A stretch of 64,000 bases of DNA from Sinomonas sp. ASV322 (GTDB lineage Bacteria > Actinomycetota > Actinomycetes > Actinomycetales > Micrococcaceae), in NCBI RefSeq assembly GCF_030908245.1, contig NZ_JAVFJJ010000012.1, positions 1-64,000 of the forward strand, read 5' to 3'. Both the position numbers and the translations under genes were made by a program. Under the pieces are notes generated by a model. The model saw nothing but the letters and a program-made list of their open reading frames with translations, was not told where the DNA came from and did not search any database. Shown in pieces: positions 1-31,808 of this stretch; the stretch's first letter is position 1; each line of letters starts with the position of its first letter.

Positions 1-10
1 GAGCGTTTGG

Positions 11-340
11 GGTCACTTCCCGTGGGTGGGGGAGCGTTTGGGGGTCACTTCCCGCGGGTGGCGGATCGTTTGGGGGTCACCTCCCGTGGGTGGGGGAGCG
101 TTTGGGGGTCACTTCCCGCGGGTGGCGGATCGTTTGGGGGTCACCTCCCGTGGGTGGGGGAGCGTTTGGGGGGGCCAACGGACGACGGCGGCGCCGCGGC
201 TTCGCTCCAAGGGTCACCTCCCGTGGGTGGGGGAGCGTTTGGGGGTCACCTCCCGTGGGTGGGGGAGCGTTTGGGGGGGCCAACGGACGACGGCGGCGCC
301 GCGGCTTCGCTCCAAGGGTCACACCCCCCCCGTGGGTCAG
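11..340 (+). repeat. 32-bp tandem repeat array A
   Basis: The core GGTCAC(T/C)TCCCG(T/C)GGGT recurs at 11, 43, 75, 107 and 139, an exact 32-bp period, and again at 212 and 244. The rest of each unit is close to GG(G/C)GGA(G/T)CGTTTGGG. Two copies of a roughly 41-bp GC-rich insert (about 171-211 and 276-316) interrupt the array, so a block of about 105 bp is itself duplicated. A degenerate last unit lies at 317-340. The array starts before the window. Because 32 is not a multiple of 3, open frames running through it are repeat artefacts. Nothing here looks like a gene. Confidence 0.9.
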
Positions 341-356
341 CACGCTGACGTGCGCC

Positions 357-548
357 CTGGATGGTTCGGGACCCGCGGGACGTGACCCCTGGATGGTGCG
401 GGACCCGCGGGACGTGACCCCTGGATGGTGCGGGACCCGCGGGACGTGACCCCTGGATGGTTCGGGACCCGCGGGACGTGCGCCCTGGATGGTTCGGGAC
501 CCGCGGGACGTGACCCCTGGATGGTTCGGGACCCGCGGGACGTGACCC
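357..548 (-). repeat. 32-bp tandem repeat array B, inverted relative to array A
   Basis: Six units begin at 357, 389, 421, 453, 485 and 517, each starting CTGGATGGT and containing ACCCGCGGGACGTG. The period is exactly 32 bp. The reverse complement of the unit contains GGGTCACGTCCCGCGGGT, the same core as array A, followed by a different 13-14 bp arm (CCCGAACCATCCAG). The two arrays therefore carry one core in opposite orientations with different flanks. The array ends about 18 bp after the stop codon of purU, so it lies in the intergenic DNA downstream of that gene. Each unit contains the perfect palindrome CCCGCGGG. Confidence 0.92.
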
Positions 549-565
549 TTGGAGGGAGAGGAGGG

Positions 566-1414
566 TCAGTCGAAGACGACCGTCCGCGTCCCGTCGAGCA
601 GCACGCGATGCTCGGCGTGCCACTGCACCGCGCGGCACAGCGTCCGGCCCTCGACGTCGCGTCCGAGCTGCACGAACTGCTCGGGCGTTTTGGCATGGTC
701 GACGCGGATGACCTCCTGCTCGATGATCGGCCCCTCGTCGAGCGCCGCGGTGACGTAATGCGCCGTCGCGCCGATGATCTTGACGCCGCGCGCGTGGGCC
801 TGGTGGTACGGCTTCGCGCCCTTGAACGAGGGCAGGAACGAGTGATGGATGTTGATCGCGCGGCCCTCGAGCGCGCGGCAGAGGTCGTCCGAGAGGATCT
901 GCATATACCTCGCCAGCACGACGAGCTCGATCCCGTGCTCCTCGACGAGGGCGAGCAGCTTCGCCTCGGCCTCCTCCTTGGTTGCGGACGTGACGGGAAG
1001 GTGCACGAAGGGAACGCCGTAGAACTCGGCCATGGGAGCGAGCTCGGTGTGGTTCGAGACGATCACGGGAACCTCGATCGGGAGCGTCCCCGTCCTCTGC
1101 TGGAAGAGGAGGTCGTTGAGCGTGCGGCCGTCCTTCGAGCACATGATGAGCGTGCGCACAGGCTCGCCGTCGGTGAACAGTCCGAGCTTCATGCCGAAGG
1201 CCTCGGCGACGGGCACGAGGGAGCCTTCGAGCTCGGCCTGCGAAGCGGCCGTCTCGACCGTGATGCGCATGAAGAACGTGCCGGTCTCGCGGCTCTCGTA
1301 CTGGCGCGATTCGACGATGTTGCAGCCCGCCTCGAGCAGGGCGCCGGAGACGGCGTGCACGATCCCGGGTCGGTCCGGGCAGGAGAGCGTCACGATGAAG
1401 GAGTTGCGTTCCAC
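566..1414 (-). CDS. purU: Formyltetrahydrofolate deformylase PurU
   Basis: Hydrolyses 10-formyl-THF to formate and THF, balancing the one-carbon pool and supplying formate. The product is 282 residues, the usual length. An N-terminal ACT domain (VTLSCPDRPGIVHAVSG, about residues 8-25) is followed by the formyltransferase domain with INIHHSFLPSFKGAKPYHQA (about 190-210) and LDEGPII, which hold the expected Asn-His and Asp. I chose GTG at 1414. An in-frame TTG at 1465 lies inside the neighbouring gene. GGAGG is only 1 nt from the GTG, too close to work, but TACCCT ends 7 nt before it, so a leaderless transcript is likely. The neighbouring glyA-folD unit serves the same folate pool. Confidence 0.93.
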   Translation of the reverse strand: MERNSFIVTLSCPDRPGIVHAVSGALLEAGCNIVESRQYESRETGTFFMRITVETAASQAELEGSLVPVAEAFGMKLGLFTDGEPVRTLIMCSKDGRTLNDLLFQQRTGTLPIEVPVIVSNHTELAPMAEFYGVPFVHLPVTSATKEEAEAKLLALVEEHGIELVVLARYMQILSDDLCRALEGRAINIHHSFLPSFKGAKPYHQAHARGVKIIGATAHYVTAALDEGPIIEQEVIRVDHAKTPEQFVQLGRDVEGRTLCRAVQWHAEHRVLLDGTRTVVFD

Positions 1415-13700: not shown

Positions 13701-15487
13701 CAGTACTTACGCTCCATCGGCTCGTAACGGGTGAAGACGACCGGCTTCGTGCCGAAGCGGATGCCCTTGATGCCCTCGGTCTCCGCGTTCGCATCGCGGT
13801 AGAGCATCGAGTGCTTCATGAAGTTGACGTCGTCACGGTCCGGGAAGTCCTCACGGTAATGGCCTCCGCGTGATTCCTTGCGGTGGAGGGCCGCGACGGT
13901 CATAACCTCGGCGAGATCCAGGAGGAAGCCGAGCTCGACGGCCTCCAGGAGATCGAGGTTGAAGCGCTTGCCCTTGTCCTGGATGCTGATGTTCGTGTAC
14001 CGCTCGCGCAGCTTCTCGATGTCGGCGAGGGCCGTGGCGATCGAGTCAGCCGTGCGGAACACCTGCATGTTCGCGTCCATCGTCTCCTGAAGGTCCGCGC
14101 GGATCGAGGCGATCCGCTCGGTGCCCGAGGAATTGCGCACGGCGTCGAGGAGCGCGACCGTCTCCGCGGCCGGGTTCTCCGGGATCTCGACGAACTCCGC
14201 GGTCTTGGCGTACTCCGCCGCGGCGATGCCGGAGCGCTTGCCGAAGACGTTGATGTCGAGGAGAGAGTTCGTGCCGAGGCGGTTCGAGCCGTGCACGGAG
14301 ACGCACGCGACCTCGCCGGCGGCGAAGAGCCCGGGAACGACCGTGTCGTTGTCCTGAAGGACCTCGCCCTTGATGTTCGTCGGCACGCCGCCCATCGCGT
14401 AGTGGGCAGTCGGATACACCGGGACCGGCTCGGTGTACGGCTCGACGCCGAGGTAGGTGCGGGCGAACTCCGTGATGTCCGGGAGCTTCGCGTCGATGTG
14501 CGCGGGCTCGAGGTGGGTCAGATCGAGCAGCACGTAGTCCTTGTTGGGGCCCGCGCCGCGGCCCTCGCGGACTTCGTTGGCCATCGAACGGGCCACGATG
14601 TCGCGCGGTGCGAGGTCCTTGATCGTCGGCGCGTAGCGCTCCATGAAGCGCTCGCCCTCCGAGTTGCGCAGGATCGCGCCCTCACCGCGAGCGGCCTCCG
14701 AAAGGAGGATGCCGAGGCCCGCCAGACCGGTCGGGTGGAACTGGAAGAATTCCATGTCCTCGAGCGGGAGGCCGCGGCGGAAGGCGATGCCCATGCCGTC
14801 GCCCGTGAGGGTGTGGGCGTTCGACGTCGTCTTGAAGACCTTGCCGGCGCCGCCCGTGGCGAACACCACGGCCTTGGCCTGGAAGACGTGCAGTTCGCCG
14901 GAGGCAAGGTCGTAGCTCACGACGCCGGCCACGCGCTTCTGCTGGTACGGCGTCCCGTCCTCGCGGACTGCGTCCTCTTCGACGATGAGGAGGTCGAGGA
15001 CGTAGTACTCGTTGTAGAACTCGACGTTGTGCTTGACGCAGTTCTGGTAGAGCGTCTGGAGGATCATGTGCCCCGTGCGGTCCGCGGCGTAGCACGCGCG
15101 GCGCACGGGCGCCTTGCCATGGTCACGCGTGTGGCCGCCGAAGCGACGCTGGTCGATGCGGCCCTCGGGCGTGCGGTTGAACGGGAGGCCCATCTTCTCG
15201 AGGTCGAGGACCGCGTCGATGGCTTCCTTGGCCATGACCTCGGCCGCGTCCTGGTCGACGAGGTAGTCGCCGCCCTTGATCGTGTCGAAGGTGTGCCACT
15301 CCCAGTTGTCTTCCTCGACGTTCGCCAGAGCGGCACACATGCCGCCCTGGGCCGCGCCCGTGTGGGAACGCGTGGGGTAGAGCTTGGTCAGCACGGCAGT
15401 GCGAGCGCGCTGGCCGGACTCGATGGCCGCGCGCATGCCGGCGCCGCCGGCGCCGACGATCACCACGTCATACTTGTGGACCTGCAT
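13700..15487 (-). CDS. sdhA: Succinate dehydrogenase flavoprotein subunit
   Basis: Oxidises succinate to fumarate with covalently bound FAD. 595 residues. Motifs: DVVIVGAGGAGMRAAIES at the N-terminus (FAD), RSHTGAAQGGMCAAL with the FAD-linking His near residue 45, RRFGGHTRDHGKAPVRRACY near 125, VFATGGAGKVF near 220, HPTGLAGLGIL near 255, and the GSNRLGTNSLLD block near 405. ATG 15487 begins MQVHKYDVV, which fits family N-termini; a longer open frame to 15601 is rejected because it overlaps sdhD. Confidence 0.97.
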   Translation of the reverse strand: MQVHKYDVVIVGAGGAGMRAAIESGQRARTAVLTKLYPTRSHTGAAQGGMCAALANVEEDNWEWHTFDTIKGGDYLVDQDAAEVMAKEAIDAVLDLEKMGLPFNRTPEGRIDQRRFGGHTRDHGKAPVRRACYAADRTGHMILQTLYQNCVKHNVEFYNEYYVLDLLIVEEDAVREDGTPYQQKRVAGVVSYDLASGELHVFQAKAVVFATGGAGKVFKTTSNAHTLTGDGMGIAFRRGLPLEDMEFFQFHPTGLAGLGILLSEAARGEGAILRNSEGERFMERYAPTIKDLAPRDIVARSMANEVREGRGAGPNKDYVLLDLTHLEPAHIDAKLPDITEFARTYLGVEPYTEPVPVYPTAHYAMGGVPTNIKGEVLQDNDTVVPGLFAAGEVACVSVHGSNRLGTNSLLDINVFGKRSGIAAAEYAKTAEFVEIPENPAAETVALLDAVRNSSGTERIASIRADLQETMDANMQVFRTADSIATALADIEKLRERYTNISIQDKGKRFNLDLLEAVELGFLLDLAEVMTVAALHRKESRGGHYREDFPDRDDVNFMKHSMLYRDANAETEGIKGIRFGTKPVVFTRYEPMERKY

Positions 15488-28823: not shown

Positions 28824-29570
28824 GTGAGCGCCGCGGTCGACCGCCTCGTCGAGGTTGTCCGCCTTCTGCGGGAGCACTGCCTGTGGACGGCGGCGCTCAC
28901 CCACGCCTCGCTCGTCGAGTACCTCGTCGAGGAGTCCTACGAGCTCGTCGAGGCCATCGAGGACGAGCAGCCCGAGGGCGAGCTGAAGGGCGAGCTCGCG
29001 GACGTGCTCCTCCAAGTCGTGCTTCACTCCGAGATCGCGCGTGAGCGGGGCGCGTTCGACTTCGACGCCGTCGCCGAAGCGCTCACCGCGAAGATGGTCC
29101 GGCGCAACCGGCACGTCTTCACGGCCGACGGCGGCCTGCAGCTGAGCTTCCCCGCGACCGTCGAGGAGATCATCGCCTCGTGGGACGCCGCGAAACGCGA
29201 GGAGAAGGAGGCACTCGCGGCGAGTGCGGCGCGGGACGACGTGCTGCCCTCGCACCTGGCCCCGGCCGGAGGGGAAGCATCGGACGCCGTCGAGGGCCTG
29301 CCGCGCCACCTCCCGGCGCTTGCGCTCGCGGACAAGGCACTTGGGCGCGCCGAGCGCCGTCGTGCGCTCGATGGCCCGACGTCGGCGTCACTGGGCCCGA
29401 CCTCGGCGTCACTGGGCCCGACCTCGGCGTCACTGGGCCCGATCTCGGCGGAGTTCGCGACGGAGGACGACCTCGGGGAGCTGCTGCTCGCCGTCGTCCG
29501 CGTCGCGCGCTCGAAGGGCCTCGACGCCGAGCGGGCCCTCCGGTCGGCCGTGCGCCGCCTCCCCGCGTAG
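28824..29570 (+). CDS. MazG-family nucleotide pyrophosphohydrolase with repeat linker
   Basis: 248 residues. The MazG domain covers about residues 5-115: LVEYLVEESYELVEAIED and GELADVLLQVVLHSEIA give the EExxE-EExxD-type metal ligands. The cys-Pro-Trp start motif of E. coli MazG is HCLWTAALTH here. A second partial region at the C-terminus (EDDLGELLLAVVRVARSKGLD) resembles the end of the second MazG repeat. Between them, residues about 185-210 are four copies of GP(T/I)SASL, coded by 21-bp tandem repeats. GTG 28824 was chosen as the first start after add. Hydrolyses non-canonical or stress nucleotides in relatives. Confidence 0.85.
   Translation: MSAAVDRLVEVVRLLREHCLWTAALTHASLVEYLVEESYELVEAIEDEQPEGELKGELADVLLQVVLHSEIARERGAFDFDAVAEALTAKMVRRNRHVFTADGGLQLSFPATVEEIIASWDAAKREEKEALAASAARDDVLPSHLAPAGGEASDAVEGLPRHLPALALADKALGRAERRRALDGPTSASLGPTSASLGPTSASLGPISAEFATEDDLGELLLAVVRVARSKGLDAERALRSAVRRLPA
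29373..29456 (+). repeat. In-frame 21-bp tandem repeat in the mazG linker
   Basis: Four 21-bp units starting at 29373, 29394, 29415 and 29436 (GGCCCGAC(G/C)TCGGCGTCACTG); the second and third are identical and the last has diverged at its end. Being a multiple of 3, gain or loss of units keeps the frame. Confidence 0.9.
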
Positions 29571-30966: not shown

Positions 30967-30974
30967 CACCCGTC

Positions 30975-31090
30975 CAGGGGTCACGTCCCGCGGGTGCGCG
31001 TCCGTTCAGGGGTCACGTCCCGCGGGTTTCACCAGCGGGGCACGTGACCCTTGGAGCGCGATGCACCGACGGGATGTGACCCTTGAACGG
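30975..31090. repeat. 32-bp repeat family, second locus, two units in each orientation
   Basis: GGTCACGTCCCGCGGGT occurs at 30979 and 31011 (32 bp apart). The inverted core GTGACCC occurs at 31044 and 31076 (again 32 bp apart). The plus-strand units have the same 21-bp core as array B at the window start (CAGGGGTCACGTCCCGCGG and the following GT). The inverted pair is more diverged. Lies directly after the eno stop. Confidence 0.88.
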
Positions 31091-31187: not shown

Positions 31188-31808
31188 ATGGCCACGCGAC
31201 GCCCCCAGGTACCCCGGGCCTCCCGGGGCACGGGCACGCCCGCGCGGCCGCATCCGGCACCCGAGGCGAGGCAGGCCGTTGCGGCGGTCCCGAAGCCGGC
31301 TCTCGAACCGAAGCACGCGGCCAAGCCGACCCTGAGCGGCGTGGCGAGATCCGCGCCGTCGCCCGCGACGACGGCGAAGGCCGGAGCGGCAGCGCGCGAT
31401 CACGCCGACGCCGCGCCCGTCCCGGCGCGGGCCTTCTCGGGGCGGATCGTTGCACTCGTCCTCGTCCTCGTCGCGGTGACCGTCATGCTCGCGCCGACCG
31501 TGCGCGTCTTCCTGAGCCAGCGTTCGGAGATCCAGACCATCCAGGCCGATATCGCGGCGAAGCAGAGCGATCAGGCGAACCTCAAGTCGCTCATCTCCCG
31601 GTGGCAGGATCCGGCGTTCATCCAGCAGCAGGCGAGGGACCGCATTAACATGGTGATGCCGGGTGAGACCTCGTATTGGGTCTTCGGCGACTCCGCGTCG
31701 TCGTCCGCCTCGAGCGGTGCGACCGGCACCTCGCCGGGCAAGGCGTCGTCGAGCGTCCCGTGGACGCAGTCCCTGTGGGACTCGGTGCGCCGCGCTGCGA
31801 CGGACTAG
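31188..31808 (+). CDS. ftsB: Septum formation initiator (FtsB/DivIC) family protein
   Basis: Bitopic divisome protein. 206 residues: a long Ala/Pro-rich cytoplasmic tail (residues 1-83), one membrane helix (IVALVLVLVAVTVMLAPTV), then an extracytoplasmic coiled coil (SQRSEIQTIQADIAAKQSDQANL) and the conserved WQDPAFIQQQARDRINMVMPGE segment. C-terminal Ser/Ala-rich tail. Its position after eno is the standard actinobacterial location. ATG 31188 has AAAGGA about 6 nt upstream. Confidence 0.92.
   Translation: MATRRPQVPRASRGTGTPARPHPAPEARQAVAAVPKPALEPKHAAKPTLSGVARSAPSPATTAKAGAAARDHADAAPVPARAFSGRIVALVLVLVAVTVMLAPTVRVFLSQRSEIQTIQADIAAKQSDQANLKSLISRWQDPAFIQQQARDRINMVMPGETSYWVFGDSASSSASSGATGTSPGKASSSVPWTQSLWDSVRRAATD

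Follow-up and report, generated by a model that had tools for sequence, protein, structure and literature searches.

What kind of element do the two opposed tandem arrays at the start of this contig represent, and do they serve the genes that they adjoin? The window, i.e., the whole stretch of 64,000 nucleotides of Sinomonas sp. ASV322 that was analyzed, runs from the first base of its contig (C4), and its position 1 is a contig end lying within the first array. TRF placed array A at 1–277 on the plus strand (period 32, 8.4 copies, 77% matches) and array B at 347–553 on the minus strand (period 32, 6.5 copies, 94% matches), and together with the core positions this confirmed the original prediction of two opposed 32-bp-period arrays that share a core and have different flanks. 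Array A, whose left side is cut by the contig end, contains seven inward-pointing units with a lead such as CGTTTGG, followed by GGGTCACYTCCCGYGGGT and a 7-nt spacer; the cores start at 10, 42, 74, 106, 138, 211 and 243 on the plus strand, with 0 mismatches each. The six inward-pointing units of array B consist of a lead, mostly CATCCAG, then GGGTCACGTCCCGCGGGT and a CCCGNAC spacer, with cores starting on the minus strand at 371, 403, 435, 467 (2 mismatches), 499 and 531. The step had been described as exactly 32 bp in both arrays, which holds for all core-to-core steps except one of 73 bp (32 + 41) in array A. A larger duplication with a 41-bp insert, also claimed for array A, is present as two 105-bp copies at 106–210 and 211–315, which are 96% identical; the insert contains GACGACGGCGGCGC and lies on the plus strand at 170–210 in the first copy and at about 275–315 in the second, with approximate bounds. 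By reading, a dyad centre and degenerate innermost units occupy 316–370 where the arms meet; no core was scored there, and the step from plus to minus core is 128. The predicted RNA fold of window positions 1–570 reached -378.6 kcal/mol on the plus strand and -288.4 kcal/mol on the minus strand. When Rfam models were compared with the window, only a tRNA reached the gathering score, leaving the element itself with no Rfam family match.

The missing side of array A appears to be located on a second contig. The start of contig C10, once reversed, overlaps the start of the window by 29 identical nt of the same array, and this half contains eight units, one of them within the overlap, which adds seven further units. 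On the window side, the gene at 566–1414 (minus strand) encodes a protein that we take, from its sequence, to be a formyltetrahydrofolate deformylase (purU-like), with 10 nt between its stop codon and the margin of array B and 17 nt between the stop codon and the core. The first gene of C10 points toward the array and encodes a 175-aa protein that is, judging from the sequence, presumably gamma-carbonic-anhydrase-like. These two gene types, compared by eye, are convergent in several congeners and co-directional in G007 and G009. Since the same two types face each other in several congeners, the join of C4 and C10 is likely, and the locus in the window is probably situated between the convergent purU and gamma-carbonic-anhydrase-like genes, with an uncertain exact copy number at the contig end. 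Window positions 1–555 and C10 positions 1–242 were counted as two halves of one locus. The purU-like protein was matched in all 15 Sinomonas genomes; arrays were seen by eye at purU in 6 of 14 readable genomes of the genus, its own genome counted, and the element is missing there, by eye, in several Sinomonas species. At purU ends in other genera, a tandem repeat was seen by eye in 1 of 27 genomes.

The original prediction had proposed a genome search for the core and its spacing, and this search bore the periodicity out. At up to 2 mismatches, the core has 290 matches (134 + 156) in the 4.34-Mb genome, compared with 2 for a reversed-pattern control. Our catalogue comprises 51 clusters (50 distinct loci), drawn from part of these 290 matches and from the 40 that were scored among 261 candidates, with 277 units that have full flanks at up to 3 mismatches, and the family is at least this large. 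The unit consensus is roughly C-R-T-Y-Y-R-R, followed by GGGTCACSTYCSGYGGGT and 7 variable nucleotides. Same-strand steps measure 32 bp in 169 of 187 cases, and 32 is the modal step in 63 of 68 arms, though the 7-nt spacers are unrelated between arms; a constant step despite diverged spacers fits a constraint on spacing. None of the 51 clusters has a minus unit ahead of a plus unit, so that all 39 two-arm clusters have facing arms; in the remaining 12, one of which is the C10 portion of the locus in the window, a single arm is recognized at up to 3 mismatches. The prediction that the arrays are non-coding also stood: according to gene calls made with a self-trained codon script, 50 of 51 clusters are not overlapped by a called gene by more than 30 nt, with one cluster overlapping a called ORF, and a coding repeat was rejected on these grounds. 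A CRISPR array was rejected as well, given spacers of 7 nt whose identity between neighbouring units of an arm is 91%.

The contig break within the array at the window start and an N within the array on C14 might suggest an assembly artefact, or else a chance repeat, an explanation that retains practically no probability. As far as the existence of the element is concerned it is refuted by the 290 matches versus 2 in the control and by the relatives: a public scan for core doublets at 32 bp returned only Sinomonas humi, with 4 stretches, and arrays of like kind with other periods occur in the single-contig genomes G002–G004.

When both neighbours were known, 28 clusters were located between convergent genes, 19 between co-directional genes and none between divergent genes; three others are at contig ends. 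In a 464-kb sample of this genome, with element loci left in, the intergenic regions of 40 nt or more were convergent in 45, co-directional in 137 and divergent in 57 cases, and comparison of the clusters with this sample gave a Fisher p of 4.5e-8 for the convergent excess and of 1.3e-5 for the divergent deficit. The distance from the edge of the element to the stop codon has a median of 7 nt on 77 3' sides (39 within 7 nt and 54 within 20 nt), and the distance to the gene start has a median of 104 nt on 20 5' sides; in L049 and L054 the stop codon lies inside the outermost unit. The second copy of the element in the window, composed of two plus units and one minus unit at 30971–31089, lies between co-directional genes, with its first core 11 nt after the stop of the plus-strand gene. 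It is possible, though we consider it unlikely, that the element is mainly selfish or mutational, i.e., that a MITE/REP-like palindrome with no job has spread and is tolerated only after stop codons, where no promoter is broken, and that its arms have grown by replication slippage. Such an origin would agree with the 19 co-directional clusters, where units are about as many on 3'-facing as on 5'-facing sides (50 versus 46), but the median of 7 nt from the stop codon is tighter than tolerance alone predicts.

The main symmetry of the element is the inverted pair of arms, which form a long hairpin right after stop codons, and not the palindrome CCCGCGGG that had been read within the core. The middle base of CCCGCGGG is C in 52% and T in 47% of the 277 units, so the palindrome is not conserved and was rejected as a binding site. 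The minimal form is clearest at locus L074, where a single plus unit and a single minus unit make a perfect 25-bp stem with a 4-nt loop; the step from plus to minus core is 21–23 in 25 of 39 two-arm clusters. For a comparison of the two arms, 38 hairpins were collected by a pattern in which seven positions of the stem may vary (26 from this genome, where those on C1, C12, C23, C28, C31, C32 and C33 do not all belong to the 51 clusters, and 12 from 7 congeners; reversed control 0). Complementary bases were found in 202 of 266 free cells, a value reached in 0 of 5000 trials with re-dealt arms, for which the mean was 167 (sd 6), with the cells being partly non-independent as a result of near-identical copies in G003 and G014 and of three tandem hairpins on C12. 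For this genome alone, 139 of 182 free cells matched versus 114 (0 of 5000). The arms covary, and shared descent of sub-families can mimic compensation in producing such a signal. The number of units in one arm is only weakly related to that in the other (r = 0.27; equal in 11 of 39), and pairing of all units is therefore not required. The three hairpins on C12 of the window's genome (G000; 363449–363612) stand in tandem at 63-bp steps, where the entire hairpin and not an arm alone has been multiplied. On C28 of the same genome, convergent regions at 81442, 152161 and 154855 contain unrelated short tandem repeats with no inverted partner detected.

Based on position, dyad, arm covariation, hairpin retention at one gene end and the group-specific motifs and steps, we read the arrays in the window as one locus of a dispersed, REP/BIME-like family of 3'-end stem-loops with a putative role in termination or in protection of mRNA 3' ends and with arms that would expand by slippage, and we give this reading a probability of roughly 0.48. 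A transcript from either gene would pass the stop codon, then copies of the ~25-nt unit and then their reverse complements, and would fold into a long hairpin, which in the minimal form has the perfect 25-bp stem closed by a 4-nt loop and in arrays a multi-segment stem. This hairpin may mark or protect the mRNA 3' end, through U-less or factor-assisted termination or as a barrier to 3' exonucleases, and at convergent genes it would act in both directions. Slippage or unequal exchange would add units to the arms at a step specific to each group (32 bp in this genome), and the units would be homogenized within an arm and not between arms. Rho, exonuclease protection and roadblocks are general background ideas, and U-less intrinsic terminators have been discussed for mycobacteria. 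Similar to intrinsic terminators, the Sinomonas element is a GC-rich hairpin after a stop codon; it differs in its long perfect stem, the near absence of a U-tract, a stem sequence shared across the genome, and iterated arms. A canonical intrinsic terminator was rejected, since at least three T in the first 5 nt were found after only 1 of 89 element tails, at the L074 hairpin, which is followed by TTTAA. Among gene ends whose element is at most 30 nt away from the stop codon, 6 of 54 have a predicted U-tailed terminator, several of these lying in the element itself; the figure is 7 of 24 where the element is more distant, compared with 23 of 70 convergent and 21 of 116 co-directional element-free ends, a depletion that may partly arise from arrays filling the 160 nt examined. 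The small number of predicted U-tailed terminators at element ends and the lack of a U-tract in the elements fit a U-less 3' end or a factor-assisted stem-loop, a role comparable to proposals in a paper on REPs (PMC3733652).

The spacers indicate how the arms have grown. Spacer identity is 91% between neighbouring units of the same arm (innermost units dropped), 40% between arms in general and 33% when the two arms at a single locus are compared, and therefore each arm is homogenized alone, which the selfish explanation also predicts. The two arms of one locus differ in G/T-type versus A/C-type letters (r = -0.66 over 39 clusters; 0 of 20000 permutations), with opposite signs in 21 clusters, the same sign in 7 and zero in the rest. 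Clusters on the same contig mostly share one sign (a consistency matched by 0 of 20000 sign flips; exceptions on C2, C4, C11, C23 and C29), and the sign correlates with the local third-position T-A skew (r = 0.57, 47 clusters) and agrees with transcription in 7 of 15 co-directional clusters; by eye, the asymmetry is present in single-arm arrays too. Although it makes the RNA of one strand fold better (r = -0.87, 39 clusters), selection for RNA wobble pairs was rejected as its cause, given the contig-constant sign, the transcription agreement of 7 in 15 and its presence in single-arm arrays. We read the asymmetry as replication-linked for the same reasons, and a contig-constant, transcription-independent asymmetry is likewise expected if the element is selfish. 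In three sampled stretches the G/T-rich strand is the strand with more coding codons and therefore probably the leading strand, and we infer repeated single-stranded exposure and slippage during replication. The GC skew of arrays reaches ~0.39, versus at most ~0.06 in element-free intergenic DNA of three sampled stretches; in the latter the skew is weak and mixed, which leaves the strength of the array skew unexplained.

The element was also compared across relatives. At up to 1 mismatch the core has 236 matches here, 0–21 in 14 congeners, where other forms take its place, and 0–2 in 43 genomes of other genera, and G006 was the one among 14 same-genus genomes searched that has same-type doublets at 32 bp. 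Doublets of GTCACNTYCTG, a 14-bp form, occur in G013 (87), G005 (53), G004 (39), G002 (21), G003 (5), G014 (3) and G008 (3), with none in the other eight Sinomonas genomes, this one included, and none in the control. The motif GTTGCGCCGTCACNT, in places at 32-bp steps, was found in G010 (47), G000 (26), G009 (23), G006 (2) and G001 (1) and in none of the other ten Sinomonas genomes, with control counts of 1 in G010 and 1 in G006. Forms of 21–22 bp exist in G001, G003 and G004 and, by eye, in others, and GTCAC recurs within the units of the 14-, 21–22- and 32-bp forms. An unrooted tree of three proteins places G000, G001, G006, G007, G009 and G010 on one side of a split with support of 1.00, and all seven 14-bp species on the opposite side, together with G011 and G012, which have neither form.

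Many orthologous gene ends lack the element. At the L074 gene end, a hairpin of 15–35 pairs that exceeds all 30 shuffles is present in 13 of 14 genomes, this one counted, and its stems fall by eye into about six types; G001 has no such hairpin within 150 nt, and G006 has no match. Functionless sequence should decay, and the retention of a hairpin in 13 of 14 genomes despite differing stems therefore speaks against a mainly selfish element, as does the lack of a transposase of the RAYT/Y1 type (PF01797) in all 15 Sinomonas genomes, the same search being positive in 5 of 14 control genomes. At the L047 gene end, where genomes were aligned by this gene alone, the shuffle test is passed by 12 of 16 rows and failed by 4, two rows being second copies. 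At the L066 gene end, the best palindrome exceeded its shuffles in 6 of 15 cases, and in 5 of these it was an unrelated operator-like site; the element of this genome scores 9 versus a shuffle maximum of 10, although visual inspection shows tandem GTCAC arrays at this end in several species. These scores, and the about equal numbers of units on the two sides of co-directional clusters, weigh against the 3'-end stem-loop and for the selfish explanation, which is also favoured by the variation of element presence between species. Elements in the same place with another copy number or step are found at L060 in S. humi, L066 in G013 and L074 in G004, and for the copy at window position 30978 and for L044 no element exists at the orthologous ends in the relatives compared. 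In many congeners the palindromic operator-like site, ACTGGATCGTATACGATGATCGTATACGATCCAGT, is situated past the end of the L066 gene and upstream of the gene that follows (L303–L316).

The arrays had been proposed to bind a protein, with all cores on one side of the helix. A nucleoid protein, gyrase or a polar roadblock on each oriented unit, for which the fixed step would mean one DNA face, seems to us quite unlikely as the main explanation. Of the original proposal, the periodic genome-wide element with its fixed step stood, and a modal step kept although spacers diverged, arms that always face each other in two-arm clusters and the GTCAC common to all three forms are what such a protein would predict; the main symmetry is instead a hairpin, and arms that covary are unneeded for single-site binding. 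Moreover, congeners iterate their units at 14 bp, which is not a whole number of turns, and same-face helical phasing is thus not a general need; most of the unit also differs between species groups. Support for a protein comes from another genus, as three convergent regions of G059 (L263–L272; sample positions 31198, 40640 and 114117) contain tandem arrays with a 32-bp period and an unrelated motif, GACGCTGTCGCACCAATGGCTGGTTTC, with opposed arms in one. The 32-bp step may recur across genera, which hints that spacing itself may carry meaning. A test for inverted partners, run on genome samples and insensitive in that it flagged 3 of 12 convergent arrays in G000 and passed over known two-arm elements, found tandem arrays with such a partner in G002 (4), G003 (3), G004 (8), G000 (3) and G059 (2); for G033, the nearest other genus sampled, this insensitive test returned no paired array in 113 regions.

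REPs (repetitive extragenic palindromes) are among the closest known systems. They are short, palindromic, many-copy sequences located between convergent or co-directional genes, often as opposed pairs, for which a role in RNA has been proposed; between convergent genes they lie mostly less than 20 bp from 3' ends, and they include the GTAG and CGTC super-families, of which CGTC REPs have no dedicated transposase (main text of PMC3733652, in which the word Actinobacteria is absent). The Sinomonas element shares with REP/BIME its short palindromic form, many copies, opposed pairs and location at convergent or co-directional gene ends. As a dispersed palindrome that is rare in divergent regions and near stop codons, it is REP-like in the wide sense. 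The unpaired tetranucleotide tag at one end of the REP hairpin has no counterpart here, as the Sinomonas palindrome consists of two facing units with their 5' ends inside the stem, and the C-R-T-Y unit start is paired in the minimal stem (CGTTCAG...CTGAACG); also unlike in REPs, both halves are repeated in tandem with a constant step. Because RAYT is absent from all 15 genomes and the tag is paired, the element is not a REP of the defined GTAG/CGTC super-families.

DNA uptake sequences of Neisseriaceae, which have group-specific dialects, offer another parallel. Their inverted pairs form hairpins that act as terminators (PMC2267715). Group-specific dialects and inverted pairs at gene ends are seen in Sinomonas too, and an uptake-like element would mark self-DNA for natural transformation and double as a terminator when paired, as in Neisseria. 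We regard this as very improbable, since there are only ~290 copies, fewer than the copy numbers of Neisseria, and those fetched are mostly in arrays between genes, at gene ends. Mycobacterial MIRU/VNTR loci are actinobacterial intergenic tandem repeats of variable copy number, which describes the Sinomonas arrays as well; the latter differ in being inverted pairs of arrays that follow stop codons, have a short unit and share one motif among their dispersed copies. In the open PMC literature, we found no description of the Sinomonas element.

An old question about REPs is how one 3'-end hairpin sequence comes to be common genome-wide and whether it is functional or merely tolerated. Sinomonas provides a natural experiment that separates structure from sequence, as at the same gene end stems vary by species and the step by species group. 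A more far-reaching idea, which we regard as a long shot, is that many Sinomonas gene ends carry a group-specific hairpin 'dialect' and that a factor for termination or 3' ends, sequence-specific and coevolving with the stems, reads it. A change of this reader would lead to stems being rewritten genome-wide while hairpins stay in place, and arm iteration at 14, 21–22 or 32 bp might tune the strength.

Several repeat families coexist within one genome. A 31-bp family, CGTTTCGGGTACGCCAAGTTCGC, and its variants also follow stop codons, at sample positions 13846, 35982 and 171523 of G004 (L186–L205), where opposed copies occur, and at 367724 of G002 (L146–L165). In random samples, k-mer enrichment in the 70-nt 3' flanks was weak. 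The window contains a further tandem repeat at 29373–29450 (21 bp, 3.7 copies, 96% matches), with a period divisible by three. Finally, 12-mers of the GACGACGGCG/CGCCGTCGT type are located at window positions 181–194 and 286–299, one being carried by the 41-bp insert of array A. All six sampled genomes (G000, G002, G003, G004, G033 and G059) have them among their most frequent repeats, CGCCGTCGTGCG has 69 copies on both strands in 400 kb of G002, and 12-mers of this type also form the stems of some ordinary terminators.
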